NCBI GenBank assembly: GCA_009602725.1
Contig: WELB01000018.1
Span: forward strand, 760,018 to 824,017
Origin: Spirogloea muscicola
Lineage: Eukaryota > Streptophyta > Zygnematophyceae > Spirogloeales > Spirogloeaceae
Direction of reading: 5' to 3'
Length of the DNA stretch: 64,000 nucleotides
Shown: positions 3,285-62,855 of the stretch, piece by piece
Layout: every line of letters starts with the position of its first letter
How positions within the stretch are numbered: the stretch's first letter is position 1
Translations under genes and position numbers: made by a program
The notes under the pieces: model-generated
Seen by the model: only the letters and a program-made list of their open reading frames with translations
What the model was told of the DNA's origin: nothing
Databases searched by the model: none

Positions 3285-5757
3285 CTTCTCGAAAGAAAGA
3301 GCTCGCCCATTGAGGATAGGGGCTGGACCAGCCAGCCCAAAAAAGAATGGACAAAGTACGAGAAGGGAGCCAGGGGAAGCGCTAAGAAAAACAAGCACAA
3401 GAAGAAACAAAGCAGCTACGAATGACTCAGTAATTCCTGCTGAGCAGCCGCAGATCAGAGATGCTAGGGTCCTGGAAGTGGGTCCCCTGGACAGAGCCAG
3501 AGGCAGCAGCTAGGGCTCTTCCGGCACGAAGGTGCAGCGCACGGGCCATGGACCTCTGCAGCGAGACGGCCAAGCGCATGCGATACACTTGCGCCAGCGA
3601 CCCGGCTGCAGGAAAGTCTACCGGCTCACCCTGGAAGCGACGGGCGATTGCGTGGCGGGCGAGCTGGTTAAGTAGCTCAAGCCACCGAGCGCCCAGTGCC
3701 CCATGGATGTCAATTGCCAACGGGAAGAACTCGTCTTCTGGCGGGTGGTCGGCGTACTTGATCTCTTTTGCCCGAGCGGCGCAGGCGACCGCATACCCAG
3801 CCTTGGTGGCAGACTGGGCTGGGTGGGAGCGGTCGAATGCGTCGGTAGTCACCATGTCCAGAAGCAGACGTGGCCCGCCGGCCTGTGGGGTGGCCACCAG
3901 GTCGACGCGACGAGCGTGGAGACCGTCGGCCCTTTCCTGGAGCGGCATGACGCCGGAGTGCTCCGCTGCCACCGCGAAACCAGCCTCCACCAGGATGCCG
4001 TGCATCGCGTCCCGGAGGCGGTCGTGGGCCGCCGTCCTCTCGCCGCCGTGGGAACAGCGCAGGACGTGAACAGCCAGCTCGCCAGGCTCGGCCCCTCGCT
4101 CGCCACACTGGCATTGACGCACACCCTGGAGGCATGGAGGCGGCAGCCCAAGGAGCCGGTGGACGGCAGTGCGAAACACCTCATTTGGGAGGGTCAGGGC
4201 GTCAGTGATGGGGAGTGCCTGGAGCCACGCCGCTGCCCCCGGAGAGGAGGCCGATTGTAGTCTCGCGCGCCCGCGCAGGTCGGCCTCAGGGAGCTGCAGC
4301 ACGGCGGTGGTGTAGGCGGCCTTGTCGACGACAGCCGCGAAGCGCGCTTGGACGCGCAGGTCAGCGGTGTGCGCGAGGTGCGCAAAGGAGACCGCCTGGC
4401 CGGCCATGTCGGGGTGCACCGCGAGCAGCTCCTGGTGGGCGGTGCGAAGCGCCACCTGGAACGGCAGCGCGCCCTTGTCCACCTCCACCACCGCCTGCTC
4501 CAGTGCACGCCGGCCATGGACGATGAAGCGCTGAGCCACGGAGGCGGCAGTCTGCGCCCAGCTGCCGAGGTTTGCAGCCCGGCATGAGCGGACGAGCGGG
4601 CGCAGGCCGAGACCCCCGTGGCTGATGGGTAGCGCCGCCTGGTGGATAGCGGCTGGCGACTGGGGGAAGCCCTGGTGGCGGACCAGGGCCGCCAAGCTCG
4701 CCACCATGCCCACGTCGAAAGCCTCGTACGCCGCCAATGCCTCTGGGGACGACGGAGTGGCCCGCGTCAAGTACTGGGGCCGCTGCCCGATGGCCTTGGT
4801 CAGCATGGCCAATGACAGCTGCATATCCTCCAGCTCGGGGAGCCGGGCCGCGGGCTGAAGGTGCGCCGCGAGGCGGGCTCGCAGCTGCCCCTCCACGAAG
4901 GCCGGCGTGCCGATGGGGACTCCCAGGAGGGTGAAGCCGTCTGCCGGAGTCCGGCAGCCCGGGGGCAGCGCCAGGGTGGGTAGGATCTCGATAGGGGACC
5001 AAGCCGCGCACTTCGCCGGCCGGATGGTCAGGCCGAGGGTGGCCAGCTGCTGCGTGAAAGTGACGAAGGCCGCCGCCACGTCTTCCGGAGGGCCGACTAT
5101 GGTGGTGTCGTCCGCGAAGGTGGGGAGAAGGACTCCTGGGTGGGCCGCTGCGGTAGCCTGCAGAGCCCGGTTGTGCGCGAGCGCAAAGAAGAAGCCGGCG
5201 AGGGGGTCCCCTTGCCGCGTGCCCGAGCGGGACTGCAGGACCTCCACCTGATCACCCCCTGTCCTCCAGAGGAGGTCGCTGGGCTGAACGTACCCCAAGC
5301 GGAAAAAGGGGACCAGGGAGGGGAAGGAGGCCCGGAGCTCCTCCACAATGCAGGCGCGCTCCACGGTGTTGAAGGCGTTTGCCACGTCGACGGCCAGCAC
5401 CAGCCACCCCGGGTGCTGGTCCAAGGTCGCACGGACCCCGTGAACGACGGCCTCGCTCCCACTCCGCAGCCCCGCGCCGTGCTGGTGTGGCGCCAAGTGC
5501 ACCTGCGCCGGCCCCGCATGCTGCTGCCAGAGTGCGCGGCTCACCAGGCAGTACAGGACCTCCCCAATGGCAATGGGCCTGACCCCCCCGCTCGGCTTGT
5601 CGAGGGCGAGCAGCGTGCTGGTGCACAGGACGCCACGGATGCCGGCCGGCACGTTGTCCCTGGCCAGGTGCTGGCAGATCTGCAGCAGCCCGTTGAAGTC
5701 CGCCGCCTCGCCCTCGAGGAAGATCTCCCGCAGGTGCTCAGCTCTGGCTTCTTCCAT
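3285..5757 (-). mobile_element. Non-LTR retrotransposon (LINE) with restriction-like endonuclease, 5' truncated
   Basis: One 776-codon frame runs from ATG 5757 to the stop at 3427, with a 3' untranslated region to about 3285. Reverse transcriptase motifs are VDVANAFN with catalytic Asp124, RQGDPL at 181-186 and FADD at 214-217. A zinc knuckle follows (C549, C551, H564, C568), then a restriction-like endonuclease core (RVDLV with Asp619; LLLDMV with Asp634). RT, knuckle, then endonuclease is the R2/NeSL/HERO/Utopia order rather than the APE type. The frame opens at the RT fingers and lacks N-terminal DNA-binding fingers, and a different repeat abuts 5758, so the copy is probably 5' truncated although its frame is intact. 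The protein ends SDLRLLSRNY. The 3' region carries the hairpin GGGCTGGC...CAGCCCC found all over the window. Clade assignment needs a tree. Confidence 0.88.
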
Positions 5758-5850
5758 ATTGACCCGTGGTTACTGAGCGGGCCAATCTGCTGTAGGTTAT
5801 GTGCGTGATGTGCTTGCCTTCGTACTTGGCCATTTGGCCTTCGTTTGTTT
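5758..5850 (+). repeat. Family A repeat, tail fragment
   Basis: Contains GACCCGTGGTTACTGAGCGG followed by GCTTGCCTTCGTACTTGGCC. This is the end of the repeat family seen in full at 6145-6465. It abuts the LINE start in the opposite orientation. Confidence 0.7.
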
Positions 5851-26905: not shown

Positions 26906-29900
26906 ATGGACGGCAGGGCGATGCTGCTGGCGCTGGCCTGCCTGGCCGCGCTCGCCGCCGGCGTGGCTGCGCAAGGTACGAGGTCGCTGTGACACAGGCG
27001 ATGCATGGCATGCCGCATTGTCTGAAGGATGGCGGGCGAGCGTGACACGGATGCTGAAAGTGGAAGCAAATAACATACATGTAACAGCAGATTGGGTGAC
27101 ATGGAGGCTTTGCCAGGCCTCGACTCGATTGTGGCATAATCATGTCGTCGGCAACGTCTGAAGTCGCTGTCGAGTCGTCTCTTGTGCCGCGAGCAGACAG
27201 GGTGCTCATCAACTGTGGTTACGGAGTTGGCCCCTACGTGGACCAGTATGGCCGGACATGGAGCAACGACAGCTCCCACTCGAACTCCACCGCCACCGGC
27301 TCCAACATGCCCCCGTACGCGATCCCCAACCAGACTAACCCTCTGGGCTCAAGCGTGTGGGAGACGTGATATCGCGTGCTCATCTGTTGTCAAATCAACT
27401 TAGTCACTTCAGTGTGTTCAGGGCTCAGTCAGTCACTGGCTGTATCAAGTCTGATGGTTCATTGCTTGGTCTGCAGGATCAAGTATGCCATCCCGGGGCC
27501 TCCAGCATTGTACTCCAAGGCCGTGTTTGTCAGCGACCCTGCCAGCCTGGTGTACAACCTGAGAGTGCATCCCGGCCGGCACTTTGTGCGGCTGCATTTT
27601 GCAGCGTTCCCTACCAAAGCATATCCCAATCCAACCGAGGTACGGCAGGTCATTGAGGTGTGGGAGAGGGCCTTTTGTGAGAATGACAAGAGCCACTGTT
27701 GGTGCTACCTAGGCACAGTGATGAGGGCAGGGGCAAGAGAAGGGCTTTACTGCCTTCACTCTAGGACATTTTTGTTCTGGCGCTGGTTGGACATTGTCTG
27801 CTCGCCAGTCATGCCGTAGGCCAGCTAGGGCAAGGGCTTCGCTCCGTGGCAATCTGCGGCTTCCGGCGCTTCCTGACGGGCTTCTTTGTCTCGCAGGGCT
27901 ACTTCAACGTGACTGCACAAGGCGTGCAACTCCTCTCCTCCTTCAATGTCGTCAAAGCGGCGCAGGCTCAGTTTGGAGGAGATGGCCTCTATGAGGCTGT
28001 GATGAAAGAGTTCTCGCTTGTGGTACCTTCTGATGCCAGGTAGGCTGCTCCAGTGACCAAGTATTGAAGCCTTAGAGACTAAGCTCTACACACATCTTTA
28101 TGCAGGCACCACCTTACCTGGACTTGATGGACTGGTTCGACTGACTGTAGCCGCAGATATGTATGCTTGTGGTTGTGTAGTCCACTGCAGTTGCTTGCTC
28201 TTCGGAATTCTGCTGGTTCGAATATGGGCTGCCTCGCTGTGCCACCAGCTCTACATGGAGATCAGACATGAATTGCGCCATTGACACTCAGCTTCTCCTG
28301 TGGCTGCAGTTCTTTGGCCATTGCATTCATACCACAGCCCAACTCCTTCGCCCTCGTTTGTGGTATTGAGGTTCTGTCTATCAACGATGACATGTACGAC
28401 TTCCATGCCGTTGACACCTCAAATGGCAAGACATTTGTGGTCCCTGCTGGTAAGCTCCTTGGGGTGGGCACTTCGAACTTTCGCTGTTAGATTCTTCGCA
28501 ATAGGTCGATTTGTGCAATCCTTGCCAGGAGCTGTGCATAGCTTACGAGGGTCTGGTTTGGTCAACCGCTTGCCAAGCTCTGGCAGGTTCTTAGTGCCAG
28601 GACTGTTTTGATATGTTGCTTTTGCAGATACCGCTCTGGCCACTGCGGCCCGCCTGAAATGTGGTGGACCCCTTGTCACACCAGCGAACGATACAATCAC
28701 CCGCACATGGTTCCAGGATGATAAATTCCTCACCAGCACGACTGGCATTGAAGTTTTCAATGAGACTGATGCTTCAGTCCAGATCCAAAACACAAATGCT
28801 AACCCTTACTTTACACCCATTCTGGTGGCTGAAACTGATCGCGAGATCAAGAACTCGGTATGCCTGCCGCCATGGGCTCACATTTGCCAGATTAGACTTG
28901 CATGCGGTGATCCTTCTATGTTCCAGCGACGCAATGTTGAGCATGCACTTTTCACCAGCAATTCATTCACTCTGGGCCCTCTAGAGCGAGCAGCGATGGC
29001 ACATCAGCATGTAGCTGTAGATGTTCACGAATGGTTCTTGTGTGCGTACCATGCAGGCGCTAGTGTCAAATCTGACCTACACCTTCACCGTCGATCCAAA
29101 CTTCCTCTACTATGTACGCTTTCACTTTTGTGAGAATGAATATTTGAATGCTGGACAGCGCATCATGGACATATACATCAACGGGCAGCTCGTTGCACCC
29201 AAGGTCAGCAATTTGCGCATTATTTGGCTTCCAAGTACATCATGTTACTTACATGTGGCTGGGTATGGCGATGATTGTCCAGCTCATCGATCTCCTGTAC
29301 CACACTTTTGCAGATTGACATTTCGGGCTCTGATGGGCCCAACACGGCCACAGTGCGGGATTTTGTCTACTCCCAGAAAACCGCTATTGTAAGAGTCTGA
29401 AGGTCATCAATCTTGCGATTGTCCACTTGCCCTGCATTGCCTTTGCAGACAGCAACATTGGACTGCAAGTTTCCTCTTCTATATTCTGTACACCAAGCTC
29501 GATATGCGCTGTGTGCATATTACATCCAACTGATCAAGGATACAAGTAATGCAAGCTGAAATGCGAAGAAGCTTTAGGGAACCATGCATCGTGACATGCA
29601 TGCTTTCCTCGTTTGCATGTTGTTTTGGGGTGCAGCAATGGCTGATTACCTGCATGTCATATTTAAACAGATGGTGATAGATCTGGCACCAAGTGCTTCC
29701 TCCATTGCCAAGAGCCCCTTTGTCAACGGTATTGAGGTCCTAAAGATGGGCAGTGCCAGCTTGACGACACCCGGACCACTACAAAAGTCGTCATCCTCAG
29801 GTCTTACTGCCGCCCAAGTTCCTTGTAGCATCCACTACTAGCTGCTGCACTCTGCAAGCTATGGTACCAGGGCTGACTCCTTGGGCCTTTCGCTTCCAGC

Positions 29901-32354
29901 TCTTGTGGATCAGTTGCACTTAAATGTTATCAGTTGCTTGGCTGGTTGAGCAACTTGCTGACCTGCAGACGCAATGTCCAGGTGGAGGTGGAGGTGGCCT
30001 AAGCACTGGAGCTTTGATTGGGATCATTGTGGGATCTCTTGTGGCTTTCATGATTCTCAAGACCTGGTGCATTTGGTACATATGCTGCCGTCGCAGCAAG
30101 ACCAAATTTCCTCCTGGCAAGCAGGTTGGTCACGTCAAGGACTGGTCGGGAATCCAGAACTTCAACAGCGCCAGCAATGGGACCAGCAAGGGCAGCAGTA
30201 AGCTACATTGCATAGCCAAGCCTGGCCATTGTACCACCTCATCTGGATTGTGCTAAGGAATTTCCACCACCCTCTGTTGCAGCAAGCAGTGTCTACAAGG
30301 TGGCTGCTCTTGGCGGTATTCGTTTGGTCTTGAGCAGGAGAAAAGTCTTGTCTTCTGTCACGGAGCATGTCATGGTGGGCTTGACACTCACTGATTGTCA
30401 TTGCATGTTTACAGGGGGCCAATTTAAGCCTGTTGAAGGCGAGTTTACTGGACGCGAGATTGATTTGAGCGAGCTCCTCTTGGCAACCAACGACTTTGAT
30501 GAGGCGAATGTGATTGGATACGGTGGCTTTGGCAAAGTATATCGGGTAAGCTCATGCACCTAGTATCCTGGCTGAGATTCCTTGTGGCATGCTGGGCATG
30601 TGTTAAAGACCAGGAGGCAAGCACCTACACCAGAATGTGACTGGCAGGTTGTCCAATTGGGACCTTTGCAGGGCGCTCTCATGGATGGAACCAAAGTAGC
30701 CATCAAGCGCTTATCCCTGGAGTCTACACAGGGAATGGCCGAGTTCCACACGGAAATTGTGATGCTCTCGGCCCTTCGGCACATGCATTTGGTGTCTTTG
30801 ATTGGCTACTGCGACGATGGAGAAGAATCTGCATTGGTGTATGAGCTTATGGAGCGTGGCACCCTCCGCTCCCACCTTTATGGTAGGTCATGGTCAGATC
30901 GCAAACTTTATAAGAGTCGCACGTGTAGCGCATGCCTTTTCAACAGTGGGTCTAAGACAGGTCATGGACATGGTTGATGCATATTAATCAAGAGTCTCAC
31001 GTGTGGCGCGTGCCTTTCCAACGTAGTTTTCCTGTAAAGACAGAAGGGCTCATCATCGTAGTGCCAGCCTGCACTAATAGCATGCAGCACGTAGCGACAC
31101 GACAGAAATAATTCTGGTCTAATGCCTGCATCTCCTTTGACAGGACCTGAGCTGAAGCCGGCTTTGCCTTGGAGGGCACGTCTGGAGATCTGCATTGGTT
31201 CTGCTCGTGGGCTGCACTACCTCCACACGGGCGTGAAGCAGGGCATCATCCACCGCGACGTGAAGAGCACAAATATCCTTCTGGATGTCAATTACGTAGC
31301 CAAGGTGTCTGACTTTGGCCTGTCAAAGAAGGGGCCGTCCATGGAGGCTACACATGTGAGCACAATGGTGAAGGGATCCTTTGGTTACCTCGACCCCGAG
31401 TACTTCCGCAGGTGTGAGAGCAATCAGAATGCGCAAGTCAAAAAGGCCTCAACTGTATCATCTTGCTTGGCTCTGCCATGCCATGCTCTTTCTGTCACAT
31501 GGAGAAGTATAGTTTTCATCCTTTGCCTCCCCTTGACGTCAGAGGCTTCGCTACCAATTTCTCTAAGTGCTTGCAGCAATCTCTTGAGCTGCTATTGATG
31601 ATGACTGGCTTGTGGCCTGCAGGCAACTTCTGACTGAGAAGTCAGACGTATACAGCTTCGGGGTTGTACTCTTGGAGGTCCTCTGCGCGCGAGCTGCTAT
31701 TGACGGAACACTTCCTCACAAGGAGGCCAACATTGTTGAGTGGGTGCGTACAGCAAAATGTCAAGTCTGTAGATAATAGCTGTTGGGTTTGTGCCCGCTC
31801 ATAGGCGTCCTGTTTTGCTGTGTGCTTTCTCTCTTACACAGAGTTTGACTCTTGTTTGTGAGCTGCATTGCACAGGCATGGAAGTTCTGGAAAGATGATG
31901 AGTTTGAGGAGGTCCTTGACCAGAGGATGAAAGGAACATACAGCCTGGAGTCTGTGAAGAAGGTTGCAGAGCTAGCTTTCACTTGCCTCGCGGAGTATGG
32001 GGTTGACCGTCCCACCATGGGCGAGGCACTCTGGCACCTGGAGGGTGCTCTCACCGTGCAGGTTCTTGCGCAGACACCCCTTGCAAGCATTGGCTAACCA
32101 TGTGACTTGTTAAATTGTGAACATCGCGCAATACTGGAATGGGTGCTCCACTGTTGTGAAGACCAATGTTGTAACCATCGGTCTCTGTTTCCCTGTGGCA
32201 GGACTCTGAGATGCCGCATGTGGAACTCACAATTCATCCTTTGACAGACCTGACTGTCCCAACTTCCACGGGCGAGTCAGGAAGCAACTCGCCTGGTACT
32301 GTGGACCGCACTCGTGAAGCATTCTCGCAGCTCTTCGAGACACAGGGTCGATAA
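26906..32354 (+). CDS. CrRLK1L-type malectin receptor-like kinase (FERONIA/THESEUS family)
   Basis: Seventeen exons: 26906-26975, 27197-27365, 27477-27639, 27897-28039, 28310-28449, 28628-28857, 29057-29203, 29314-29388, 29671-29800, 29934-30197, 30283-30315, 30415-30545, 30672-30882, 31144-31411, 31623-31743, 31876-32061, 32202-32354. They give 877 residues, the usual CrRLK1L length. A signal peptide ([18 protein letters not shown]) is followed by two malectin-like domains ([40 protein letters not shown]), a Gly-rich linker, a transmembrane helix at about 449-475 and a basic stop-transfer. The kinase has [14 protein letters not shown] (Lys577), HRDVKSTN (Asp674) and DFGLS (Asp692), so it should be an active RD kinase. 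The end [10 protein letters not shown] is typical of the family. The family senses cell-wall state and RALF peptides at the plasma membrane. The exon 9/10 join (29800/29934) is the least certain. Confidence 0.92.
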
Positions 32355-35479: not shown

Positions 35480-38400
35480 TCAATTTGAGCCAAGGTTCGT
35501 ATCCGGCAAGTGCTGGTTTGCAAGAGTGGCGGGCCTGATGGTGGCCAAAACCGGCTCGCTCAACAGAGGCTTCCCATTCTGCAGAGCAGGACATTGTGCT
35601 TGCGATTCTAATGGCCACATGAACAACTTCAAGTCCTTGAGTGAGGGAGGCAGGTAATCCTGTTCCACAGCTCCGTCGTGACTTGGGGGGTAGATATAGT
35701 CCTTGCCATAGTTGAGGTCCTTCATCAACTTTGTTGGAGCATTTTGTAAATGAAGTGGCACAGGCTCGTTCTGTGAGAACAAGCAGCACAACACAGGATT
35801 CGATATCATACTTCACTACCAGGTGAAGGACTGGGCAACAAGTAGCACAGCATACATTCATTTCCAGTGGATGGATTACTCCAGTCCACTGGATCAACCG
35901 GGATTGGTCCAAAGCAACATGGGCGAGGATCATGACAGCCATCCTTATTCACCTGCTTGCTGCCCCGGACCGCCTGCTGAGCAGCCTCGATCCCTCTGCC
36001 AATGGTGACAGGCGAAGCTCATGACATGATGACGAAACTTGCATGCTTTCAGTCTCAGATCATATGACTTGAACAAATAAAAGCAGCAGTGCTGTGGACC
36101 CGCATCCTACCTTGCCAGTATCTCTTAAGCAACAGTTGCTCACCTATACACGGCAACTGACTTGGGAGCGAGTGCGAGATAGGCTGCGCACTGTGCAAGA
36201 TTCACGTTGCACTCGGGCATGCCCAAAAACTGGCACGCCTGCACGTTGGTGAATGACATGAATGGTCAGTCGCTATTGCTTTCTTCCTCAGGAACTTGTG
36301 CAGAGCTCAACTCGTATCTAGGGGTTGATGGTCCTCAAATAACACCATCTGATTACACAAGAATCAGAGAGCATATCCAGGCATTAATTTTGGGGTGTAA
36401 GCTAGTATGTAAAAGTGCCTGAATATCGGGTTTGTAGCTGAAGCTCACCTGGAATGTGGCCACGGCCTGCACCAGGGCCTGGGGGTCCGCGAGGCCCACG
36501 TCCTCGGAGGCAAAACGCACGAGCCGCCGCACCACGTACAGGGGGCCCTCACCGCCCTCAAGCATCCGCGCCAGCCAATACAGCGCGGCATTGGCGTCCC
36601 CGCCTCGCATGGACTTGTGAAGCGCGCTGATGATGTTGTAGTGCTCGTCGCCAGTCTTGTCGTACGCCACATGGGAGCGCTGCAGCGCGCTCCTGACAGC
36701 TGCAAGGGCAACCTCCACCACTCGCCTTGGCGTGCCCGCGGTCTGTGCATGGCCATCACTGTCCTCAAACCCGCCATTGCTGAGCGTGGGGAAGTCTTCA
36801 GCACCTTCGGGCTGTCCACTCCTTGCAATGGGCTCCTCAGAGCTCAGCACGGCTTGCTCAGCACGGGTTGTTGCGGCTGCTGCGTCTTCAGCCACGGCCG
36901 CCAGGGCAGCCATCTCCAGCGTGCCCAGCGCTGCCCTGGCATCGCCATCTGCTGCTGCTGCCAGAAACTGCAAAGCATCGTCCGCCACAACCACCTGGGC
37001 AGTTGACGACCTGGCGGAGGTAGCCTCCTGGACTTGCTCGAGTATGGTCATTGGGAGGCCATGCTGCTCGTCAGAGACGGCACGCCGCAGCAGACTGAGG
37101 ACGTCGCCGGGCTGCAGCTTGTTCAGCGTGAACACCTTGCACCTGGACAGCAGGGCTGGCAATGGAGGAGGTGGAGCGGGACAGTCAGGGTAATGTGGGC
37201 TTCCTCTCATCTCCTCTCATCTCAGCAGAGGGACCATCTTCGATGAGAATGACAAATGCTGCACTTGATGCCATAAGATGGCGAATCTCCAAGTGAGGGT
37301 CACCTGAGTTGAGCTCAAAGGAGGGGTTCTCGGTTGTCGCGCCGACCAGAATCACATCCCCCGCCTGCTCCCTGGTCACAAGGAGCTCGTCAGCTCGTGC
37401 TGCTGGTTGCCAAGAGCAGGCATTCGCGAGGCGCTCACAGTGAGCTTGCAAAGTGCACAATGCTCAAGATGGGGACCTGAGTGTGCGCTGCTAACTACAG
37501 CAACATAAACACGGGGCTCCCCGTACCTCAACAGCAGGGAGGAATGCGTCCTGCTGGCTCTTGTTGAAGCGGTGCACCTCGTCAACGAAAAGTAAGGTTC
37601 GCTGATGAAGAAGCAGAGGAGAGTGAAAGGAAAGATGGTGGAATCAAGTTAGTTGGTTTGGCATTGCAAAGCAGATGATCCACCATCATTCATGTCAGCA
37701 CCAGCTGTGGTACATGGTTGATTTGTCATTGAGAATGTGTCACGAAGTCAGAGGGTCAGAGCACAGTCAAATCGAATTTCGGGTCTTGGAGACAATACCT
37801 GTCCACACTTTCTGGTGGCCTTGGCAGCGTCCAGAACTGCCCTCACGTCCTTGACTCCGCTCGTGACGGCCGAGAGCGCCACATATCTGGAGCGCCACAC
37901 CGCACTCGAGAGTCAGGTCCAGAAAGTCGTAGCTGTGCGAAGACAGCTACTAGAATTTGTCAATTTCTCACCAATGGAAAGACTTTTAGGTGTAGCAGCT
38001 GAAGCTGACCTGAAGGAGACCATTTGCGAGATGATGCGTGCAAGTGTGGTCTTCCCGCTGCCCGGCGGGCCCCAGAGGATCATGGATGGCACGGCACCTT
38101 TGGCGAGCAGCTTGCGCAAAATTCTGCCAGGCCCGAGAAGGTGGTCCTGGCCAGCAATGTCGTCCAAGGACCGCGGCCGCATACGCTCCGCCAGCGGCGT
38201 GAATGGCGCATCGGTTACGACACGGCGGTGCTGCCGAGCTGAGGCGTGGTGGGCGCCCAGTTGCTGCCGTTCTCCGGCAGCAGCCAGCCGTGGCCGCTTG
38301 GGGCCGCGCTGGTCCAACGGCTGCACGTCGTCCGAGCCGGACGTATCCCTCGGAGGCGGCTGTGCACTCGTGCACCAGTCGTTCACCTCAGGCTGGGGCG

Positions 38401-39148
38401 GGACCAAGTTCGGGCTTCCAACGGCTTCCTCAGATGCAGCAGGGGCTGCTGCGTCTGTCAGCGGCATCGTCGGCGGCTTCCCAGCGCCATCCGCCGTCGC
38501 CGCCAGTTGAGGCCCGGCGAAGAAGCGGTCTACTCGCGCCTGGTGCTTCTCTGCAGCAGCCCAAGCGTCCCGGAGCTTGTCAAGTGGGGGCCCTCTACGA
38601 CGCGACTTGACACAAGCCGAGCAACTGGAGCTGCTGGGTTTGACTGGTGTATACTATGGATGACAGATTGAGTAATGCATCATGGTTTTAATCAGTCTTC
38701 AGGCCTTCAATTTGGCAGCACTCACACCACTGAGAGTTTGATCATCATCGAGAAGGCCCCTCAAACCTGCAGTCCAATTCCAGCTGATCAACTTAGACCT
38801 CTGCGGCTACGGGCTTTGGAGGTGCTCGGACCTGCGAGGAATGGGGGGCAGTCCGGCGGTGGCGCCGCCGCGGCGGCCCTGCGCTGCCCTCCACGCAGAA
38901 GCCACTCCATGGCCGCCTCGGCGGAGCCGGCGCCGGTGGCGGCCAGCGCTCGGGCGGCCTGCGCGCGGTCGGAGGCGGCTCAGCGGGCTCCGCAGAAGCC
39001 ATGGCGGCTCTGAGCACGGAGTATAAGAAGGCTCGGCGGACGTCTCGGGGGCTCTCTGAGTGTGGAGTCCGCGACGGACCTCGTCACGGCCGAAGCCCAT
39101 GTCCACGAGCCTGGCGACGGCGGCCTCCGGCGGCCCGCCGTCCGCCAT
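35480..39148 (-). CDS. WRNIP1: WRNIP1/RarA (MgsA) AAA+ ATPase with N-terminal UBA domain
   Basis: Ten exons (high to low): 39148-39080, 38958-38832, 38643-38010, 37886-37799, 37601-37527, 37364-37304, 37155-36449, 36238-36144, 35995-35953, 35770-35480. They give 729 residues. The N-terminus ([20 protein letters not shown], then AALAATGAG-type helices and [11 protein letters not shown]) is a ubiquitin-associated domain at about 1-50, as in plant homologues; the animal protein uses a UBZ finger instead. The AAA+ core has Walker [10 protein letters not shown] at about 257-265, [14 protein letters not shown], Walker [15 protein letters not shown], sensor [13 protein letters not shown] and an Arg-finger region LLSRCKVF. 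The clamp-loader-like C-terminus contains [19 protein letters not shown] and [19 protein letters not shown]. It is a replication-fork ATPase acting at stalled forks. The last 45 or so residues are not conserved and could instead be a retained intron. Confidence 0.92.
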
Positions 39149-49214: not shown

Positions 49215-51920
49215 CAAGTGCCCTGCTATGTGCTGGTGTCCAGCCCCCGCGCCAGGCGCGTCTGGCGCCCAAGTCACCAAAGATCTGATCACCAAAGGTC
49301 TGCGTCGTCCTCGGTCTGCCTCCGGTCACCCGATGACCTACCATGACCGGCGGACAGCAGCTGTGGCGCCGGCATTGCTGCTCTATGCAACTACCGCGTA
49401 ATGGCCGTGATCTACCTGGGTTAATCAGCACTACGGCTTTCCATCAGCCAAGTCTACTGTTAACCCCAGGTCTGCAACACTCCACCTTAGACTGCTGATG
49501 AATTGCCCTGACTAGCCCTGAGGGATGCAGGCCTTTCTCCCGCGGCTGGGCAGGCCACATACAACCTCCTAGCCGATGCCCTCTCCACCTGGCTGTAGCC
49601 CTTAGCAACCAGCTTGGCCTTGTGCCTCTCCACCTCGCCAGCAGCTATTTTCTTCACCTTGAGAACCAGGTTGATGTCAATTGTCCCATTGAGGTACTTG
49701 ATGAGGGCCTTCACTCCAGTACATTGCTGGTACTCTGGTGCACTTATATGTGCTGGCTCAGCTTCCCCACAGCTGCTGCCACATCGGCCTCGTGCCCACG
49801 GTGAGGTACATGATACTCCCAACTGCCTGAGCAAAAGGGAAAGGAAGCCTCCACCTCCTTGTCTTGCTGCATTGGGCTGTCTGTTGATCTCAAAGATCTG
49901 CTTGAGGTCGTGCTTCTAGCTAAGCTCCACCTGTCTTGCAGCTCTGGTCCTCTTGATCTGGATGCCGAGCAGGTACTTTACTTCTCCCAGGTCCTTCATC
50001 TTGAAACCTGCCTCCTCTTCCCACTCCTTGGCATCTGGCCTCTTCAAAGCCTCTGCCAGAGTGATGGGCTCCACCTGATTATTAGCCAGCATGGCTTGCT
50101 CAGCTGTACCTGCATATAGTTCCTGCTGGCTTGTTGCCAGCACCTGCCCCTGCAGCTCCTCCCCAAGTCGTTGCCCAGCTGGTGGATCAGCCGGCCGTGG
50201 TGCATGCAGGATCACCAGCTGCTCCAATGCAGCTGCCTCCTGCTTGTCTCCTGCCTGATCTATTGACAGCACCTGCTGGCCTGTTGGCAGTGGCCCCACC
50301 AGTTCCATGTGCACCAGCTGCAGCGGCTCCTTTGTCACAGTTGTGAAGTGGGGGAAGTGCCCTTGTGCTGCTTCCCCGGCTGGCACCCCTGGCAAATGCC
50401 CAGCTCCTCCTCCTTCAAGTTGTTGGAGTCGAGTCCCTTGGCCAATCCTTTGGCCTGCAGCTCCTTGAGCTGCTTCACTCCAAGATGGCCGAGTTGCTAG
50501 TGCCAGAGCAAGAGCCTGCTCGTCTCACCTCCTGCTGCCACAAAGGCAACCTCCTCCTTCACCTCCACCACCTGGGGCTTGCTATGCAGCTTGAAATGCT
50601 GGTGCTGCAGTCTGGCCACACCCAGCAGCTTGCCCTTGTAGCTCCTAATCCAGCATTGGCCCGCCTCGAAGCTGACGTCGGCTCCCCTCTCGGTCATCTG
50701 AGAGACAGAGAGCAGGCTGGTAGATGCCAGGTACATGCAGCACCTCGGCGAGGAGGATCTCGGTCTTCTTCCCTTGGACGCGATGACGCAGCACCACTGA
50801 TCCCACGCCGGTCACCTGCAGGGTCTCCGTGTTGCCAAAGGTGACAGTCTGCCCTTCGACCGGCGTGTAGCCACGCAGCCACTCCCTCCTCCCTGTCATG
50901 TGGGCGGTGGCTCCACTGTCAACGATCCAGTGGTTGTCTGGTTGCTGGCCATGGTGCTGGTGGAGCAGGGAGAAACCCGTGTGCTCAGGTTGCCGGTCAT
51001 CCTCCTTGGAGCTCCAGCAATCCCGGGCCCAATGGCCCCTCTTCTTGCAGGAGTTGCAGATGTCTTCGCGACGGTCCCTTCTGGGCCTCCATACACTATC
51101 CGGCCTCCTCGACGCTTGCTGTCGCCCATGATCAGCCTTGCTGACAGCTGCCGCCGCCACCATGCTGACTTGCTTGTCGTGCTCCAGCATCTTCTCCTCT
51201 TGCAGGAACGTCTCAGCCACTCGCTGGAAGGTGAGGCCTTCCACAAAGCCCAGAGGGATCACCACTTGCAGCCATTCTGGCCGCATGGACTGGAGCAGGG
51301 CCTCTGTCCCCTCCTCTTCCTCCACCTTGGGGTCGGCCGCCCGCAGCTCCGCCGTGATGCCTTCCAGCCTTGAGATGTGTTCGGCCATCGGCTTCTTGGG
51401 GTCACGCCGCGCCTCCCACAGCTGCTTGCGGAGGTAGGCCACGCGGAGTTTAACCTCGCACCGTGTGTACCAGACGTTCGCCTCGCTGCCGCCTCTGGTA
51501 CCACGTGGAAGATTGCCGGCATCCAAGACGCCTGGCCGCGGAGGCGTGAAGGTCGTCCAAGCGAGGCTAATCGAGAGCGCGTCCAGGCAGCGGTGGGGTT
51601 GGCGGCGGGGAGCAGCGTGGGACAGGAGAGACGGAGTGTGGAAGGACGTCGCTCGACTGAGCTTAGTGGTGGGCAAGTGGCCCTGCCTTGTGCCTTGTGT
51701 GCCAGGCGCGTCGTCCCCGGTCTGCCACTGGGACCACCGGTGACCGACCATGACCGGCGGGCAACAGCCGTGGCGCCGCCATTGGGCCACTATCACTGAG
51801 CGGCCCCACGCAACTACCGGGTAATGGCCGCAAGCCAGACCTGGGGTTAGGTTAGGGCACTATGGATTTCCATCAGCCAAGCTCAGGCCTTTTACCGCAG
51901 AGGTTTACCCCGGATCCAAC
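49215..51920 (-). mobile_element. Copia-type LTR retrotransposon, fossil, broken
   Basis: Terminal repeats at about 49215-49485 and 51690-51920 share an ordered set of blocks but differ at many sites. Between them, on the minus strand, lie a Copia-type gag (UBN2-like) with a CCHC zinc knuckle, a protease with the DSGATAHMTG signature, a trace of the pre-integrase/integrase region, and a small reverse-transcriptase segment near 49980-50060. The element is clearly broken, with several breaks, and its pol region is incomplete. Divergence between the two terminal repeats suggests it is not recent. It lies about 3.5 kb beyond the start of the 173-residue gene. Confidence 0.85.
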
Positions 51921-54672: not shown

Positions 54673-57600
54673 TCAGTCCACTTCAAGCCACGCCAACCTT
54701 GCCCTTTCTTCCGGCTCCAATTCCTTCACCTTACGAACCTTGGCAATGACACCCTCAAGCTCAGCCTTCCGCACAGGCTTGCTCAGGTACAGATTCATCC
54801 CAGCCTCCTTGCACTCGTCCTCAATACCTGGCCCTACATCTGCCGTCAGAGCTGCAACAATGGGCTGCTCTGCCACAGGAAAGTTGACCTGCAATGCACC
54901 ACCAACTAAGTGAATTGCTTAGTGGCTCACCCTAGAACCACTATGAACTCCCTACAACGTCTTTCAGGCAGCAGTAACTTGCACTATCAGTCTGCTTGTG
55001 ATACAATGACAGAGGCAGACTGCTAAATGAACAAATGTGCAGGCTGACAGTTGAAATGTGATAAGTTGGAAGGTAACACTTGATGATGTGATTAGTCTAT
55101 TGCAAAGGTTTAGGCTTATTACTCGCAAGCGCCTCGTGGCTGTCAGACCATCCATCTCGGGCATTTGAAGGTCCATAAGGATCAGGTCATATTGCTTGTC
55201 CTTCATTTTCTCCAGGACCTGCTCACAACAATATCCAAATTAGTGTAATATGATGAGCTTCATATGAGCACATACGAGATTCCAGATATAATCGGATTAT
55301 AGCCACAGTCCGTGGCATGTTGGACAGGAGCCAGACACAAGTTTCAAAGATGAGCAACCAATACGGTGCCATAACCTTCACCCTTGCGGATGATCACTTC
55401 AACTCAGGCTTGCTCAAGAACATAAAAACCACCGAGCAGATGAAGTATGCATAGATGGACACTAGGTGTACTGTCACGATGATCAAAGCCCAGGACAAGA
55501 GAAAAATAGACAACGACAAAGACAGAGGGTCTGGGGTAGCACGTATGTATACCTTGACCCCATTAATTACTGTCTCACAGTCTGCATGTCCGAGACCCTT
55601 GAGCAATTTCAGGAGCACCTGTGCTTGGCAAAAGAGGGAGCAACTAAATATTCGATAAAAATCAAATACTTTGAAGCCCTTTACATTACAATCGAAACAA
55701 AGGAGGACAGGCCGTGTGCTCCTCCACATATAGACCATGAATTCAGGACGTTACCACAGACATCCACAAGTGCAACAATACAGAGTGAAATAACAACGAC
55801 AATGCATTCAGAAGGTACGTGGACCCATGAAGATCATCCGTCCCGTGGTTGAGAACATGTGCATGACAATACCTTTTGGTTGATGAGGTTGTCTTCCGCA
55901 ATCAATATACTGAGCTCCGTGGAAACTGTGGCATGGGTGGCCTTTGGCTTTTCCACAACCTTTGCATGCCAGGAAAGCAGAGCCAGGTGGTCAAGACAAC
56001 AGCCCAAAGAAGAACCATAACCAGCACAAGGGGTGCAATCACAGTCACACTGGCGTAATAAGTTCTTCTATTGGAGTACCTGAACCTTGGCCAACGTGTC
56101 AACCAGTAGCTTCCGCATCTGATTGATACGCACAGGCCTGGAGAGAGTGCCTGTCACTTCCTGCATTTACCAGTGCAGATCTAGAATGAAGATATAGCTT
56201 GGAACCATACAGCTTGCCGTCTGCCTGGCCTGACATGCATACCCTTCCATTGGACAAGACACAGAAGAGCCCATCTGCCTCCATATATCTCAGGACGAAA
56301 GCATGCCATAGGTGCATAGCGCATGGTGCAGCTGTCAGCAATAATCAATGCAAGCTACTCATTACAGCGGTGATGATGTCATGGAATTGATCCTACCATC
56401 TTCGAAGCATCGATGCCGGTTTGAGACCTTGTGTGCTTTGCTAGTAAGAGGAAGGTTGGGACCCGGCCTTGAGTGCACTGGCAGCCTATCTGAGTGAACT
56501 TGAGGGCAGCCTCGTGCTCCATAGCAAAATTGACCAGATGGTCCTCCGCGACCTTCTTCTCCACGCTTGTGATTGGGCAGTCCACCAACACGACATCGAA
56601 TGCTCCACTCCCGCCATTGCCTCCAGCTTCTGTTGTGCTGGCATGTTTCACAAGACTGTCCTCATTTGACTGCCTGCTCCTGATGCGAGACAGAGACGAT
56701 GAGATCTCGAAGTCCTTGGCTGCGGTGACAGGAGGGCTGGGTTGCGGGAAGGTGGGACGTGTTTGAGTGACTGGCTTTCTAAGTGAGGGGCCTGGTTCGC
56801 CAAGTGCAGCATAAACTTCGTCCTCCGTGGTAGCCTCGACACAGACCATGCCCCAGGCTCTGAGGATCGATCCCACCATCCTGTGGAACGTCGGCGTGGA
56901 GCCCACTAAAAGAGCTCGCTTGCCGCTCAGCGGAGTGGGAAGCGCCGTCATGGCAGTTTCATACGTCAACCGGTCAGTCTCAGTAGTAACATGCCGGGAG
57001 AGGGTGGCCCACGGCTGTTTAGCCCCGTGAGCCATGATGGTAAAGTAAAAGGAAGATCCTTTGCCTAGCTGGGTTTCCACCCAGATCCTGCCTCCCATTC
57101 TCTCTGTCAAGTCTTTGGCTATTGCCATGCCCAGGCCCGTGCCTGCCAAAAATATCAGAACCCAATCTCAGCAGCCGCTTGGCCTTCATGGAGCACTATG
57201 CCAAGCCCAATGTAGACCGAGTCTGCCCAGAAGCCCTCATAAGTGGCCCTCATCAGTGTGTCACTTACTAGAAGAAGCCCTGTATGCACTTTGAAGAAAC
57301 AAGTTGCAAATTTACAACTTTCACAAGCAACAGCAAGGCAGGGGTACACAAGGCAGGCCAGAAGATGCAAGTCACAGATGATACGGGGTGCCAATGCTAG
57401 TCAACATCTTTGCACCCAGCACTGAAGAAACTTCTCATTCAATCTAGATTGAACTTTTCAATGTTAAGTACTCACCTTCATACTTCCTGGTTCTTGAGTT
57501 GTCACACTGGGTGAATGCCTCAAATATGACATGTGCAAACTCAGCCGGCATGCCAATTCCTAGAGGAGAATGGAGGAGTAAAACAATGTACTTAGCTAGA

Positions 57601-60600
57601 CAAAACTTTCATAACCACAGTCACAACGAGGTCGTCCCTTTCGGATTGGATAAATTGAACACTTTCTGCAAGATAATGCTGATCCCTTCCTGTTTACAAT
57701 CTCACTTAGACCAGGAGCACTTGTAGGAGAACGCTTGGCTACGCTTGGCAGAAGGCAAGCAAGAGTTGGTTGAACGCTGGTCCCCACCTGTATCCCTAAC
57801 ACAGAATTCGATCTCAAAATTCGGTAGGACCTCCCAGTCCTTAGGCTCAACTTCACCATACTGCAGCATCTCTCCACCAAGCTCTATTGAAGGCCTCCTT
57901 CGAGGTCGTGCTTTCACAGATACCTCTACCTCACCACCTTCATCGGTAAATTTTGCTGAACAAGGATAACATACAAAAGGCATGTCAGAACCCAGTCAGC
58001 TGCCCAGAAGAACATGGCATGAGATTGAAGAACAATGTTCATTGGCCATACCTGCATTGGAGAGCAGGTTGGTAAGGATTTGGCGAAGGCGAACCTCATC
58101 GGCCCAGATGTACCTGCACATGAAATAGAAGGTCAGGAGTCGAACCAACAAGCAACTGAAAATCTGCAATCAAGGGCTCGTCAACACGAGGAGAAGACCA
58201 TAGCAGAGCCAATAGCAGTAGGGCAACTAGTATTCATACTGACAAAAGGCTATTGACAAAATGTCAACTGCGCCAGGCGGTCCACTCACAAGGGCACATT
58301 TTCATCAGTGTTGTATGAAAGATCAAGACCCTTCTTCTGACATCGGAGAACAAGCATCTCCATGCAGAAATCAAGGCAGCTCATGATGTCAAACTCCTTC
58401 ATCTGTAATTCCATCTTGTGTGCATCAAGCTGCAGACAGCATATGACAAACAAGAGCAGTCAAGATCTGCCTTACTTCTTGTTACAATGGAGATTTCTGA
58501 CAAATCTTACGCTAGGGTAAAGACAAACCCAGTGGAAAGCCGCCTACTTGCCTTTGAGAAGTCCAAGATGTCATTGATGAGGGACAAGAGTTGCTGACCA
58601 GATCTGACCCATCTCAAAAGCATCAAAGGCGGATATTCAGATTTCTTTCATCTCCTTGGCCAGACAAAGGAAGCCTCCAAAAGCGTAACAATGGCAACCA
58701 TCTCAATTACAAGCAAATCACTACCAGGTCCTCAGCACTACACCTCCAAGCCAACAGGTTTGACATTCAAGCTGTTCTCGAATCAAGTGCTTACCCATGG
58801 ATCATCATGGACAATTCCAATTGATCATTGCTGAGATTACAAGTGTCTTGGAGGAGCTGACTACATGCTATGATGGCATTCATAGGTGTCCTGATCTCGT
58901 GACTGATATTGGCCACAAATTGCCTCTTTGCTTTTGCAGAGGCCAACTTTGCAACTTCTGCTAACTGCATGGCGGAACCCAGAGAAAAGCGATCGGCAGT
59001 CATGACACTCTTCTTTTGATGAGTAAGTACAGATGATGAGCCAGCACAGGATGCATGGGCTACACAAATAGCATCAAGTGCAAATATCTGGCCCTCCTCT
59101 TGTAACAGCCAAGCTTCACCTGCTGTACTAGTTTAAGACGTAGCTGAAGGAAGATAGAATAAGGAGCACTTACACGCATTTTCTCCAACTGGAGCTCTTT
59201 TTCTCGTCGAACAGTGCAGTCAGAGAGGATCCCAAAATAGTATCTGTCGATGAGTACTGAAGCCAATCAGATCTGATCAAGATTCACACAAATATCATGC
59301 AACTTTGAAATTAAGCTGAGTTGGTTCTCTTTGCTAAGAAGTCGAGAAAGAGCAGGCACCTCTTATTTAAATCCATGGACGAGCCATTCACAATTGTCCC
59401 ATTAGAGGTGATCACTGGTCGAATCCTAAGCCAATTCCAGAAAGGCGTTCCATCCTTGCGGTAATTAATAATTTCCACCGATGCTGACCGGCCCTCCATG
59501 CAAGCCACTTTGAGTATGGCAACAGTGGCCTGATCAGTCAGAGGGCCCTGAACATCAAGAGATATCCATCAGAACTTGGGCCCAGCAAACCCTGCACACA
59601 GCAGACTCAAATTGGGCCCAGCACAGTGGCCAAGCTGCCAATCCCCTTCTAACCCATGAACAAAGGTGCAGAATGGGAGCACAGATCCTTATACTTACTT
59701 GTAGAAAGGACCCACAATGAAGACCCACGCTTTCTTTTAGCGTGTAGCCAGTGATCTTTTCCCAACCCTCATTAACAAACACAATTGGTTGGCCCTTCTG
59801 TGAAAGGTCACACAAGACCAGCCCTTCGCTAAACGCATCTGCAAAGCAGCCAGAATACATAAACAGAGCAGTCAGCTGACAGAGACCAACCCGTAGCTGG
59901 GTTCAAGGACGGCAAGCAGGCTTGCAAACCTTGCCATGACGTTGTTGATGTGAAGCTGCAAGCAACTTGCTCAGTACCATCTCATGACATACCAATTGCA
60001 AGCAGTAAACCCTTCTTGTCCTCCTCAAACTTTTCTGCCTGCATGCGCTGGAGCTCAAGCTGCTGCGTATGCTTTTCTATTTCCTGGCCAAGCAACCCGT
60101 GGTTCAATTTCAGTAGAAAGATGACATGCTGATAAGCACCTTCTCATCTACTATGTGTCACTGCTGCTACGATAGTCCAAATTTGAAGCACACAACCACA
60201 AACCAGCTCTGCAGAACAAACCATGAGATGAGGAAGCTTACCAAGACTACAAGCTGAGCAAGAGAGAGAAGAAGATCTTCTTCTTGTTGGGTAAATTGCC
60301 TTGGCTTAAAATCAATGACGCACCTAAAAACAAACACGCGTACAATTGTAACGTATCAGATAGTAATGAGCATGTCTGCCACAAAGCCAGACTACCACGT
60401 TGTGGCACAAGCCCTGGTACAAGATAGTATCTTCTATCTGCAACTTCCACGTCTGTATTTTGCCAAGAGCACCCAATAAGATCTTCACAATCAAGCACAT
60501 GTAAGTGCATACAATGATCCCAGCACAAATCCACCAGATGTCAACAGCGGAGCTCCAGCATAGAAACGAATATGAGGAGCTCCTGTAACCTGCCATAGAT

Positions 60601-62855
60601 GCACATGCTGGAGACAATCAACATCAAGCTCACAGACTGCCAATATTCAAAGCATGAGTAGGAATGGTTTTGTTGTCCACTATAAGCTGCAAAACCAGCA
60701 GGTGGCAACACACCAGAGGGTTCTGATTGAATCTGGAGTCCATTGTTGCATTCCTCACGATTAAGCAAGGCTTCTTCCTGTGCACCGGTAATGAGATTCA
60801 CATCAGCTGTAAAAGGTTAGCATTGGCTGCTTGGTAGATCTAGAGAAAGTAGTCAACCCACGAACTTTCTCCAGAGTCGTGAAATAAAGAGATGAAGGCT
60901 TGCAGCCTAAGGCCTATGAACACCTCCTTCAAAGCTTTCCCTCACCATCAGCAACCACTACGAATTTGTGACTGGTGGAGAAGGTCTGACTTGCTGCCAA
61001 ATTGCCCCTTGGGCAAGCAGATGTTCAGTGATGAAACATTGAAATAATTAAGGAGGAGGTAATGAGATTTGTACGCTGGAAGAAGAGTGTAAGCACAGAA
61101 TGAGGAGCAGCGATCAGTCTCTGTCACTCCTGGCAGTCCCACATTTGACTGCAGAAATGCAGGACATTCTTCTCTCAGGAACCATGTATACCAGATCAAA
61201 CAAGCTGGTGCATCAAAGAAGGGTGCTATAAGGTACTGACAAGTCGTTTAGGACTCCTTTGTTATCTACTTCCTACGCACTTCTCATAGCTGCACAGGAT
61301 TTCAAAGTTTACTTATATAGTGATTACCTTGAACCACTGCCTCTTGCTATCCACCAAGGAGACTAGAGCAACAGGACACTGCACCGTCACAATCCTCTGC
61401 ATGTTAGTCTCAGATGATTACTCTTGACAGGAACAAAGCAACGCCCAGCTGCAATATGTTGAATGTCAAAAGGCTCTGGACCACAAGACGATGGTAATTG
61501 CAAGTGGCAGCTCCTGTAAGTAGGGTAACAAGCAGGGAAGAGAGGCAGACCTGGAAAAGCTTGCCTGCAAGAGCTGTCAGCCGGTCATATCTCGGCTCTG
61601 GTGCCTGTCATTGCCAAACAACCAATTCCTTCATGACTGATGTAGAATGCAAAAGCAGGCTCACTCATTCTTTCGCAAATGCCTGTGGTACTACGGCACC
61701 ATGGCCATTGCAGTAAATTCATCTCTGGCATGGTCGACGAACACAGAGCCATAAATAGTAATGTACTGGACACAAGCTGGCTGAAAAATAACTCCGACTG
61801 TGCTTGTGACAAGTAAGCTCCATACCGTGTCAAGAAGATTATAATTCCTCAAAACCTGTAATCTGAAATCTTCATTTGATGGAAAAGGGGCGCCCTGCTG
61901 ACAAAGCACAATACACCCTGCTGAGATACCGTCTCTGACACCCATGTCTTTACTGGTCCAAGCTTTTGGTCATACCCTTTCCGATAAGTTAGGCACGTTC
62001 TTTCGTACAGACGGAACAGCAGAGTGAAGTGCTTCACGATGGATGCCACAAGGCCACGTGCAAGCGATTGCCTTGCAAGTTGCAACCACGTCCGACATGA
62101 GTGCACCAAAAGCCATACTCCACACCATTCGCTATGTGCCTCACCTGTGCACCAAAAGCCATACTCCACACCATTCGCTATGTGCCTCACCTGGGCATTG
62201 AAAATAGAGCCCTCCTTTGGTCGCTCTGGACCAAGGGTCATGGGGTAAAACACTTCATCGACTGAGTCCTTGCTCTCGGAAGTCGCCGCATCGTCGTCAA
62301 AGTTCGCCTGCTGCCCGTCCAGGCTGACCTGCTGCGCCTCGAGGTACTCGCGGAGGTCCGAGGCATTGCTCTGGGTCCTGAAGTCCTGCGACCGGCCGGA
62401 TGGCGATCTGAAGTTGATGTCGAGCTGGAACAGGAGAGAGATTGTCAGAACAGTGCCGACAACAAGGCCAGCGGCCTGGCAACCGGCAACGAGGAGCTGC
62501 GGAGCGGCCACTCAGTGCAGAATGTGTCACAGTGGGAGCTCTGCCAGTCAATTGGCCAAGAGGAGCTCGAGGCTCGTGCTGTGCTCGCCGGCCTTTGACT
62601 CACAGGATGCGAGTAGTCGAGGCCGGAGTGCGACCGCTCCAGCGGGTACATCTGCTCCGCCGCGGCCGCCGGGAAGGCGAAGTCGCCGTTCGTCAGCGAC
62701 CCCGCGCTGCCGGCGGCGTCCTCCTCCGCGAAGTCCTGCAGCCTGCTCTTGACCATGTCGGAGCCTGCCTCTCCCGCGCCGTGCTCCCGGGCGGCCTGCG
62801 CGCCCTTGCTGGCGGCGGCGGCCTCGTCCGCATCCTTAGTGACGACGCAGCCCAT
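54673..62855 (-). CDS. Hybrid histidine kinase: GAF, LOV-like PAS, HisKA, HATPase, degenerate receiver, receiver
   Basis: Twenty-six exons (high to low): 62855-62604, 62424-62191, 61894-61826, 61604-61551, 61378-61328, 61148-61075, 60971-60946, 60806-60634, 60589-60513, 60323-60242, 60083-59993, 59838-59699, 59547-59360, 59243-59174, 58964-58795, 58603-58552, 58429-58290, 58113-58052, 57955-57788, 57559-57476, 57142-56397, 56160-56080, 55959-55873, 55618-55553, 55218-55123, 54888-54673. They give 1182 residues. MGCVVTKD suggests a myristoyl/palmitoyl anchor; no membrane helix is seen. GAF about 163-364 (LVSLVDSKRQWFK, IRFYAGAPLL); LOV-like PAS 395-503; HisKA with His549 (FVANISHEIRTPMNAI); HATPase (RQILTNLLSNAAKF, GIGMPAEF, GTGLGMAIAKDL). 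A receiver-like domain lacking the acidic pair (LLVGS) precedes a full receiver (Glu1050, Asp1051, Asp1095, Thr1126, Lys1148). It should start a His-to-Asp phosphorelay. The kinase and receiver half resembles plant AHKs; the input half does not. Confidence 0.9.
58430..58551 (-). other. GC-AG intron in the histidine kinase gene
   Basis: After TTCTCAAAG the intron begins GCAAGT and ends CTGCAG before CTTGATGCACAC. No GT donor nearby keeps the frame, and AAG|GCAAGT is the usual strong context for the rare GC donor class. Confidence 0.75.
59360..59838 (-). other. LOV-like PAS domain of the histidine kinase
   Basis: Two exons encode residues 395-503. Matches to LOV domains are PIVFVNEGWEKITGYT, FLQGPLTDQATV, and VEIINYRKDGTPFWNWLRIR. 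The flavin-binding loop reads GLHCGSFLQ against the usual GxNCRFLQ, so the photoactive-type cysteine (Cys436) is there but Asn is replaced by His and one residue is extra. The exon boundary falls right after FLQ, at CAA|GTAAGT. Confidence 0.75.
62102..62193. repeat. Perfect 46-base tandem duplication over a splice donor
   Basis: Units 62102-62147 and 62148-62193 are identical. Each holds the minus-strand donor CAG|GTGAGG, so exon 2 of the histidine kinase has two identical donors 46 bases apart. Only the first (exon end 62191) keeps the frame with the next exon as modelled. Confidence 0.92.

Follow-up and report, generated by a model that had tools for sequence, protein, structure and literature searches.

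Histidine kinases (HKs) that carry a LOV domain are already known in chlorophytes. In Ostreococcus, LOV-HK is described as a blue-light input to the clock (PMC12704426), and homologues are reported in Chlamydomonas, Dunaliella and Coccomyxa (PMC6137987). These green-algal proteins, such as OtLOV-HK of Ostreococcus tauri, place the LOV domain, HK and receiver (REC) in one polypeptide, with a proposed relay through HPt proteins and response regulators (PMC12704426, PMC4343026, PMC6137987). Hybrid kinases with two PAS domains (PAS-PAS-HK proteins, or PHKs) are reported in Klebsormidium, bryophytes and lycophytes (PMC6137987), and a Zygnema genome preprint describes expansions of LOV-domain and HK orthogroups in the ancestor of the Zygnematophyceae (PMC9915684); these statements, like the other citations below, refer to the parts of the papers available to us. 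Among the literature matches listed, no paper on a zygnematophyte LOV-HK was found. Here we describe a gene that is an altered form of such kinases. It lies on the minus strand at 54673-62855 of a 64,000-nucleotide stretch of Spirogloea muscicola DNA (contig WELB01000018.1, positions 760,018 to 824,017), which we call the window and whose own positions are used throughout.

What appears to be new is the combination of a GAF domain, a LOV-type domain without the canonical residues, an output half of the cyanobacterial HK-REC-REC type and a lipidation motif. Our preferred reading, to which we assign a probability of about one half, is a membrane-held hybrid kinase of bacterial type in which the LOV input would act without a cysteinyl adduct, through flavin redox changes if it senses at all, and in which phosphate would pass from the kinase histidine to the second receiver and on to HPt. 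A preliminary description of the locus had listed an MGC start, GAF, LOV-like PAS, kinase and two receiver domains, and all of these are present when the gene is examined by Pfam, hydropathy and profile comparison. Its suggestion that land plants lost or never had such an input was too strong, because LOV-HKs of chlorophytes and PAS-PAS-HKs of streptophytes have been reported (PMC6137987).

Like the green-algal LOV-HKs, the Spirogloea protein has LOV, HisKA, HATPase and receiver domains in a single chain. It appears to differ from OtLOV-HK, by description, in the GAF domain that precedes LOV, the loss of the canonical Cys motif and Gln, the inserted degenerate receiver and the N-terminal lipidation motif. 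PHK1 and PHK2 (moss, liverwort, Selaginella, Klebsormidium) are likewise PAS-bearing hybrid kinases of streptophytes, and their best bacterial matches are mostly cyanobacterial, but their order is PAS-PAS-HisKA-HATPase-REC and their PAS domains do not cluster with LOV (PMC6137987). The alga instead combines GAF with one PAS of LOV type and has two receivers rather than one. A Pfam scan of the first gene model, which carried an X at one join, returns GAF, PAS_9, HisKA, HATPase_c and Response_reg in that order. The principal features are as follows.

62604-62855, minus strand: exon 1, N-terminus MGCVVTK, with G2 a candidate for myristoylation and C3 for palmitoylation
59993-61897, minus strand: GAF domain and linker helix to LOV, exons 3-10 (Pfam GAF, 190-323, E = 6.9e-15)
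59174-59838, minus strand: LOV-type PAS domain, exons 11-13 (Pfam PAS_9, E = 9.5e-14; PDB matches; LOV hidden Markov model)
59699-59725, minus strand: altered adduct motif GLHCGSFLQ (three-copy alignment)
59716-59714, minus strand: motif Cys codon TGT, which is TCT (Ser) in the gene copy on contig C146
59225-59227, minus strand: Leu codon replacing the usual LOV Gln (YYFGIL)
58290-58964, minus strand: HisKA, exons 14-16 (Pfam E = 1.8e-20)
58901-58899, minus strand: codon of the phospho-acceptor His in NISHEIRTP
57009-58113, minus strand: HATPase_c, exons 17-20 (first part) (Pfam E = 1.1e-26)
56080-57008, minus strand: degenerate first receiver (hhalign profile comparison)
54673-55959, minus strand: intact receiver, exons 22-25 (Pfam Response_reg E = 2.7e-21)

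One gene in three copies

The exon structure was read by splice rules together with an alignment of three gene copies.

54673-62855, minus strand: whole gene, 25 exons, 1138 residues
62855-62604, 62424-62191, 61897-61826, 61604-61551, 61378-61328, minus strand: exons 1-5
61148-61075, 60777-60714, 60589-60513, 60323-60242, 60083-59993, minus strand: exons 6-10
59838-59699, 59547-59360, 59243-59174, 58964-58795, 58603-58552, minus strand: exons 11-15
58429-58290, 58113-58052, 57955-57788, 57559-57476, 57142-56397, minus strand: exons 16-20
56160-56080, 55959-55873, 55618-55553, 55218-55123, 54888-54673, minus strand: exons 21-25
60714-60777, minus strand: exon 7 with its corrected start at 60777, reading TLLPA-KKPCLIVRNATMDSRFNQNPLV in frame

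The coding sequence opens with the ATG at 62855, and six codons before it the window copy has a TGA in the same frame; the stop codon ends at 54673. A search of the organism's own genome (153 Mb, 471 contigs, as in all own-genome searches here) with the part of the protein after the seventh-exon join finds two further copies, L029 on contig C146 and L030 on contig C72. The gene had earlier been given 26 exons. The additional one, a putative exon of 26 bases (60971-60946), produced a one-base frame clash with the next exon; it lacks a GT donor in the C146 copy, and its identity between copies (81-88%) is at the intron level. When the next exon is begun at 60777, the frame is repaired in all three copies.

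The three copies encode 1138, 1138 and 1140 residues with no internal stops and are about 95% identical to one another. Splice dinucleotides are standard (GT or GC, AG) in 144 of 144 cases across the copies, including one GC-AG intron at an identical position in all three. Identity between copies is 94.3-95.8% in exons and 85.7-88.2% in introns, and the ratio of nonsynonymous to synonymous substitution rates (dN/dS) for the whole gene is 0.136-0.158, the mark of purifying selection. Because the splice sites are intact, exons and introns contrast in identity and selection is purifying, this is one functional gene and not an artefact of exon joining; the LOV-like and kinase exons belong together, as first supposed. 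For the linker plus LOV the ratio is 0.00-0.054: between the window and C72 copies it is 0.00, the lowest of all parts in that pair, and between the C146 copy, with Ser for Cys, and each of the others it is 0.054. The remaining ratios are those of the kinase (0.038-0.087), the last receiver (0.12-0.18), the degenerate receiver part (0.17-0.19), the GAF domain (0.21-0.22) and the N-terminal part (0.32-0.33).

The copies begin with MGCVVTK, MGCVVSK and MGCVVTK, so that all three fit MGCxx[S/T]K, an N-terminus of the type that receives N-myristoylation plus palmitoylation. Of the lipid tether proposed at first, the dual-lipidation motif is thus present in every copy, and anchoring of the N-terminus itself is predicted from the motif rule. 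No membrane-type stretch is found in the protein, whose highest 19-residue hydropathy mean (1.66) falls within the GAF domain; this agrees with the description of a soluble protein without a transmembrane helix.

At the donor end of intron 2 (62101-62191, minus strand), about 46 bases stand by eye in tandem duplicate, including the GTGAGG donor, and this duplication could possibly provide an alternative 5' splice site. Further gene families also occur threefold in the genome, for example on C18/C146/C72, C29/C324/C143 and C96/C6/C20. Such threefold copies suggest whole-genome triplication, and the genome of Spirogloea muscicola is a triplicated one.

A LOV-type domain with an altered active site

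The PAS domain has LOV affinity by several comparisons. Among the best 60 of its 148 PDB matches, 41 are named as LOV, phototropin, aureochrome, blue-light receptor or miniSOG; the other 19, including the top 17, are named only as histidine kinase or diguanylate cyclase. Its sequence is 46% identical to 9vf7 and 49% identical to 6rhg, both solved LOV segments, and the 6rhg series is presumably a LOV-derived protein. With a hidden Markov model (HMM) built from 61 bacterial LOV segments that are themselves among the scored loci, the algal copies score 107.7-110.3 bits, bacterial LOV-type domains 131-209 and ordinary PAS domains at most 38. The LOV assignment made at the outset therefore passes a profile test that could have spoken against it (110 bits versus at most 38), using a profile without the power to separate true LOV from near-LOV PAS domains.

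The residues of canonical LOV photochemistry are altered. The exact pattern G-x-NCRFLQ occurs in 61 of 80 bacterial LOV loci (these being 80 of 123 loci from one genome-contig scan), and the phototropin-like LOV1 domain of the same algal genome keeps GRNCRFLQ in all three of its copies. The hybrid kinase instead reads GLHCGSFLQ in two copies and GLHSGSFLQ in the third. This motif is one residue longer, with His for Asn and Ser for Arg under an uncertain gap placement, and none of the copies has Cys in the canonical register. The active-site Gln of the last strand is also replaced, by Leu in all three copies. Since neither the Cys motif nor the Gln is kept, canonical blue-light chemistry is unlikely, and the idea of a light sensor is weakened. 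By contrast with these changes, three other residues are kept in every copy, namely Asn in NYRKDG, Asn in FWN and Gln in FLQ. These are positions at which LOV domains contact flavin, and the algal domain is accordingly a candidate flavin binder.

Precedents exist for each change. LOV proteins that lack the Cys are able to signal by reduction of their flavin (PMC4682037), and Gln-less LOV receptors keep light responses, with Leu for Gln tolerated in those tested (PMC9098866), so that either loss alone is compatible with LOV signalling (PMC4682037, PMC9098866). BAT-LOV* and LOV-delta-Q are likewise LOV folds without the adduct Cys or with Gln exchanged for another residue such as Leu (PMC4682037, PMC9098866), but the algal domain has neither residue in canonical form and is situated inside a eukaryotic hybrid kinase.

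One alternative is a working blue-light receptor: the shifted Cys (GLHC) would still form an adduct, which is what OtLOV-HK is expected to do, and its absence from one copy would be a simple loss. The Cys is present in two copies whose linker-plus-LOV proteins are identical over 163 of 163 residues, Leu for Gln need not abolish the response (PMC9098866), and the Ostreococcus LOV-HK is described as a blue-light receptor (PMC12704426). However, the extra residue between Cys and FLQ shifts the register of the Cys, both neighbours in NCRF are replaced, and the C146 copy remains under strong selection with Ser at this position. The retention of the exact motif in most of the bacterial loci and in the genome's own LOV1 also speaks against it, and we consider this alternative rather unlikely.

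A second alternative holds that the LOV fold is a cofactor-free structural element for dimerization or coupling, leaving the signal to the GAF domain or to a partner protein. The joint departure of the motif at Cys, Asn, Arg and Gln fits this proposal, and GAF-PAS kinases without LOV chemistry do exist, as L143 illustrates: this GAF-PAS-HK from the cyanobacterial-phylum search described below has a near-LOV PAS domain without the Cys. L143 has FWV and LLQ, however, where the alga retains FWN and FLQ (within FLQGP), and the flavin-holding Asn, Asn and Gln are unchanged in the alga. A cofactor-free role is also hard to match with a dN/dS for this part that drops to zero between two of the copies. 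We regard it as doubtful and favour a flavin-bearing domain that would signal without the adduct.

Affinity of the kinase and its receivers

The output half has what a hybrid HK needs for phosphotransfer, as previously described: an H box, N, G1 and G2 boxes in the HATPase domain (by eye) and an intact receiver with AED, the acceptor Asp (codon 55173-55171, minus strand), Thr and Lys (by eye). On the input side, the GAF domain matches a single PDB sequence at 0.001 (4zmu, E = 2.4e-32). Bacteria also have the order GAF-PAS-kinase, as in L143, which aligns across the whole GAF-LOV-kinase stretch with 33.5% identity.

The bacterial sample comprised the loci of the genome-contig scan mentioned above, 385 genomes from the class of an Azospirillum genome (7 matched at E 1e-58) and 386 genomes from the phylum to which a cyanobacterial genome, Tychonema, belongs (14 matched at E 1e-62). 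HK-REC-REC hybrids of the latter phylum (L145, L147, L148, L150, L132 and others) have kinase cores 43-47% identical to that of the alga. Two receivers follow the kinase in 10 of 15 proteins compared, some of these ten being near-copies of each other, and in them identity to the last receiver of the alga is 25-31% for the first receiver and 40-43% for the second. Their first receiver is of the same kind as that of the alga (GKR-LLIVDDN-T-R...WGM). They differ in that it keeps VDD in six of seven aligned, and in that 13 of the 15, within the portions compared, have no match to the algal GAF or LOV domain at E 0.001 (the exceptions are L143 and L144).

The first receiver of the alga has VGS for VDD, Arg for Lys and a low-complexity insert. 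It gives no Pfam match even at E 1, and phmmer yields a weak match for the form with the insert cut (best E = 4.8e-6) and none for the uncut form. Alignment to a profile of mixed receivers reaches 3% uncut and 20% with the insert removed. When compared by hhalign with the first receivers of seven cyanobacterial-phylum hybrids, however, the domain scores 96.9% (E = 1.4e-10, 125 columns) with the insert removed and 90.6% over 47 columns with the insert kept, versus 1.4% for a reversed control. This comparison confirms the degenerate receiver that had been noted by inspection.

In a kinase-core tree of 34 rows, the alga falls beside eight cyanobacterial-phylum rows (94/91), and L132, L149, L152 and L155 of the same phylum fall outside this group. 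A reduced tree of 20 rows (the window copy, 7p8e and 18 of the 32 bacterial rows) places the window copy with six cyanobacterial-phylum rows (93/93). Neither pair of values was starred by the program, the window copy and 7p8e are long branches, and the cyanobacterial-phylum rows were selected by similarity to the window copy.

The domain order of kinase, degenerate receiver and receiver is shared with plant AHKs, and the preliminary description had called the output half AHK-like. One could therefore suppose an AHK relative whose CHASE and membrane part was exchanged for GAF-LOV. The best PDB match of the output half is indeed 7p8e, with 198 bits spread over three pieces; one piece extends into the degenerate receiver. 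The record is titled 'Receiver domain of histidine kinase', and its layout leads us to take it for a plant AHK-type kinase. However, the kinase core scores at least 150 bits to 7p8e (two pieces joined, with the middle missing) versus 211-229 bits to 11 cyanobacterial-phylum rows, and a clade of the window copy with 7p8e is rejected by the approximately unbiased test (p-AU = 0.009, with a single, partial plant sequence and the long branches and row selection just described). The degenerate receiver also matches the first receiver of the cyanobacterial-phylum hybrids, and the protein has neither the membrane helices of an AHK nor a CHASE domain that Pfam can find. Such kinship with the AHKs is very improbable; the AHK-like order stands, and the sequence affinity lies elsewhere. 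The kinase tree, the p-AU test, the two-receiver order and the first-receiver profile match make a bacterial HK-REC-REC unit the best reading of the output half, with cyanobacteria the closest of the sampled groups.

When LOV and kinase are combined in a tree of 22 rows, the alga sits on a long branch next to L153, a weak placement (84/83); the PAS domain of L153 in this region is not LOV. Common descent with the Cys-less Azospirillum LOV-HKs (GRDGSFLQ, GRNGDFLQ, GRNAAFLQ) was considered and finds no support: five such rows form a 100/100 group with their Cys-bearing sister L138, and the alga is outside it. Gly, Ala or Pro replaces the adduct Cys in the Azospirillum LOV-HKs L062, L114, L116, L117, L123 and L128, the last read from its motif only and outside this tree; they show altered LOV chemistry in bacterial kinases as well. 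One scan of viral contigs gave one weak kinase match (19% identity). Plasmids gave 2843 matching records, and the five examined among the matches listed combine a strong GAF match with a protein that lacks FLQ.

Relay partners, mechanism and meaning

Elsewhere in the genome, contigs C252 and C241 carry exons with the reading VDSFVHQLKGSSS that match a stretch of plant HPt, and 51 receiver matches were scored. Together these make a His-Asp relay likely in the alga and give substance to the link to the plant phosphorelay that had been proposed; the HPt-like proteins would be the relay partner of the kinase. A Pfam CHASE search of the six-frame genome, blind to introns, was empty, as was one for HPt, and because introns split domains we do not take either result as absence.

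We propose that the protein is a cytosolic hybrid kinase held at the membrane by N-terminal myristoylation and probably palmitoylation, with a membrane-tethered dimer as its working form. The GAF and LOV-type PAS domains, in line ahead of the kinase, would set its activity through connecting helices. Phosphate would move from ATP first to the His of HEIRTP, next to the acceptor Asp in the second receiver and finally to a plant-type HPt, and the first receiver would serve as a spacer or regulator that cannot be phosphorylated. The LOV domain most likely operates without a cysteinyl-flavin adduct; if it senses, its signal may be a change in the redox state of the bound flavin, brought about chemically or by photoreduction, and the GAF domain would be a second input. 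A more specific history can be offered tentatively, in which, in an alga close to land plants, a LOV-type domain without the Cys register and the signalling Gln became a sensor of flavin redox state, tethered to the membrane and affected by light at most through photoreduction. This sensor would feed the plant His-Asp relay by way of an HK-REC-REC half derived from a cyanobacterium, and the Cys/Ser difference between copies would be the last step.

Several observations weigh against this proposal. The Cys is retained in two of three copies, so an adduct with shifted geometry could still form. The near-LOV PAS domain of L143 (KTPRLLQ) scores 136 bits on the LOV HMM, above the alga's 110, and because a Cys-less domain outscores it the algal LOV ancestor may never have had an adduct Cys in register. 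The combined loss of Cys and Gln in one LOV domain is not discussed in the available parts of the two papers that describe the single losses (PMC4682037, PMC9098866). Downstream, the single-sequence structure model of the degenerate receiver has a mean pLDDT (predicted local distance difference test) of only 41.8, the HPt matches are short exon fragments, and the intron-blind six-frame Pfam search of the genome for HPt found nothing.

The remainder of the window holds unrelated features.

28612-31595: receptor-like kinase, with a kinase exon that matches Pfam Pkinase
28612-29130: frame that is malectin-like by eye, with no Pfam match
3430-5769 and 50648-51859, minus strand: retrotransposon remains, with a 780-residue reverse transcriptase frame and a copia-type gag/pol fragment
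36356-38653, minus strand: exons of an MgsA-type AAA+ ATPase

The gene adds a LOV-type hybrid kinase to a lineage that is probably streptophyte, and the chemistry of its LOV domain speaks against blue-light sensing of the simple kind. It also shows that the AHK domain order can occur without the sequence affinity of the AHK-type kinase tested, so kinship with hormone receptors should not be deduced from domain order by itself. The three copies, one with Ser for Cys, constitute a natural test of LOV signalling without the adduct and Gln in a plant phosphorelay.

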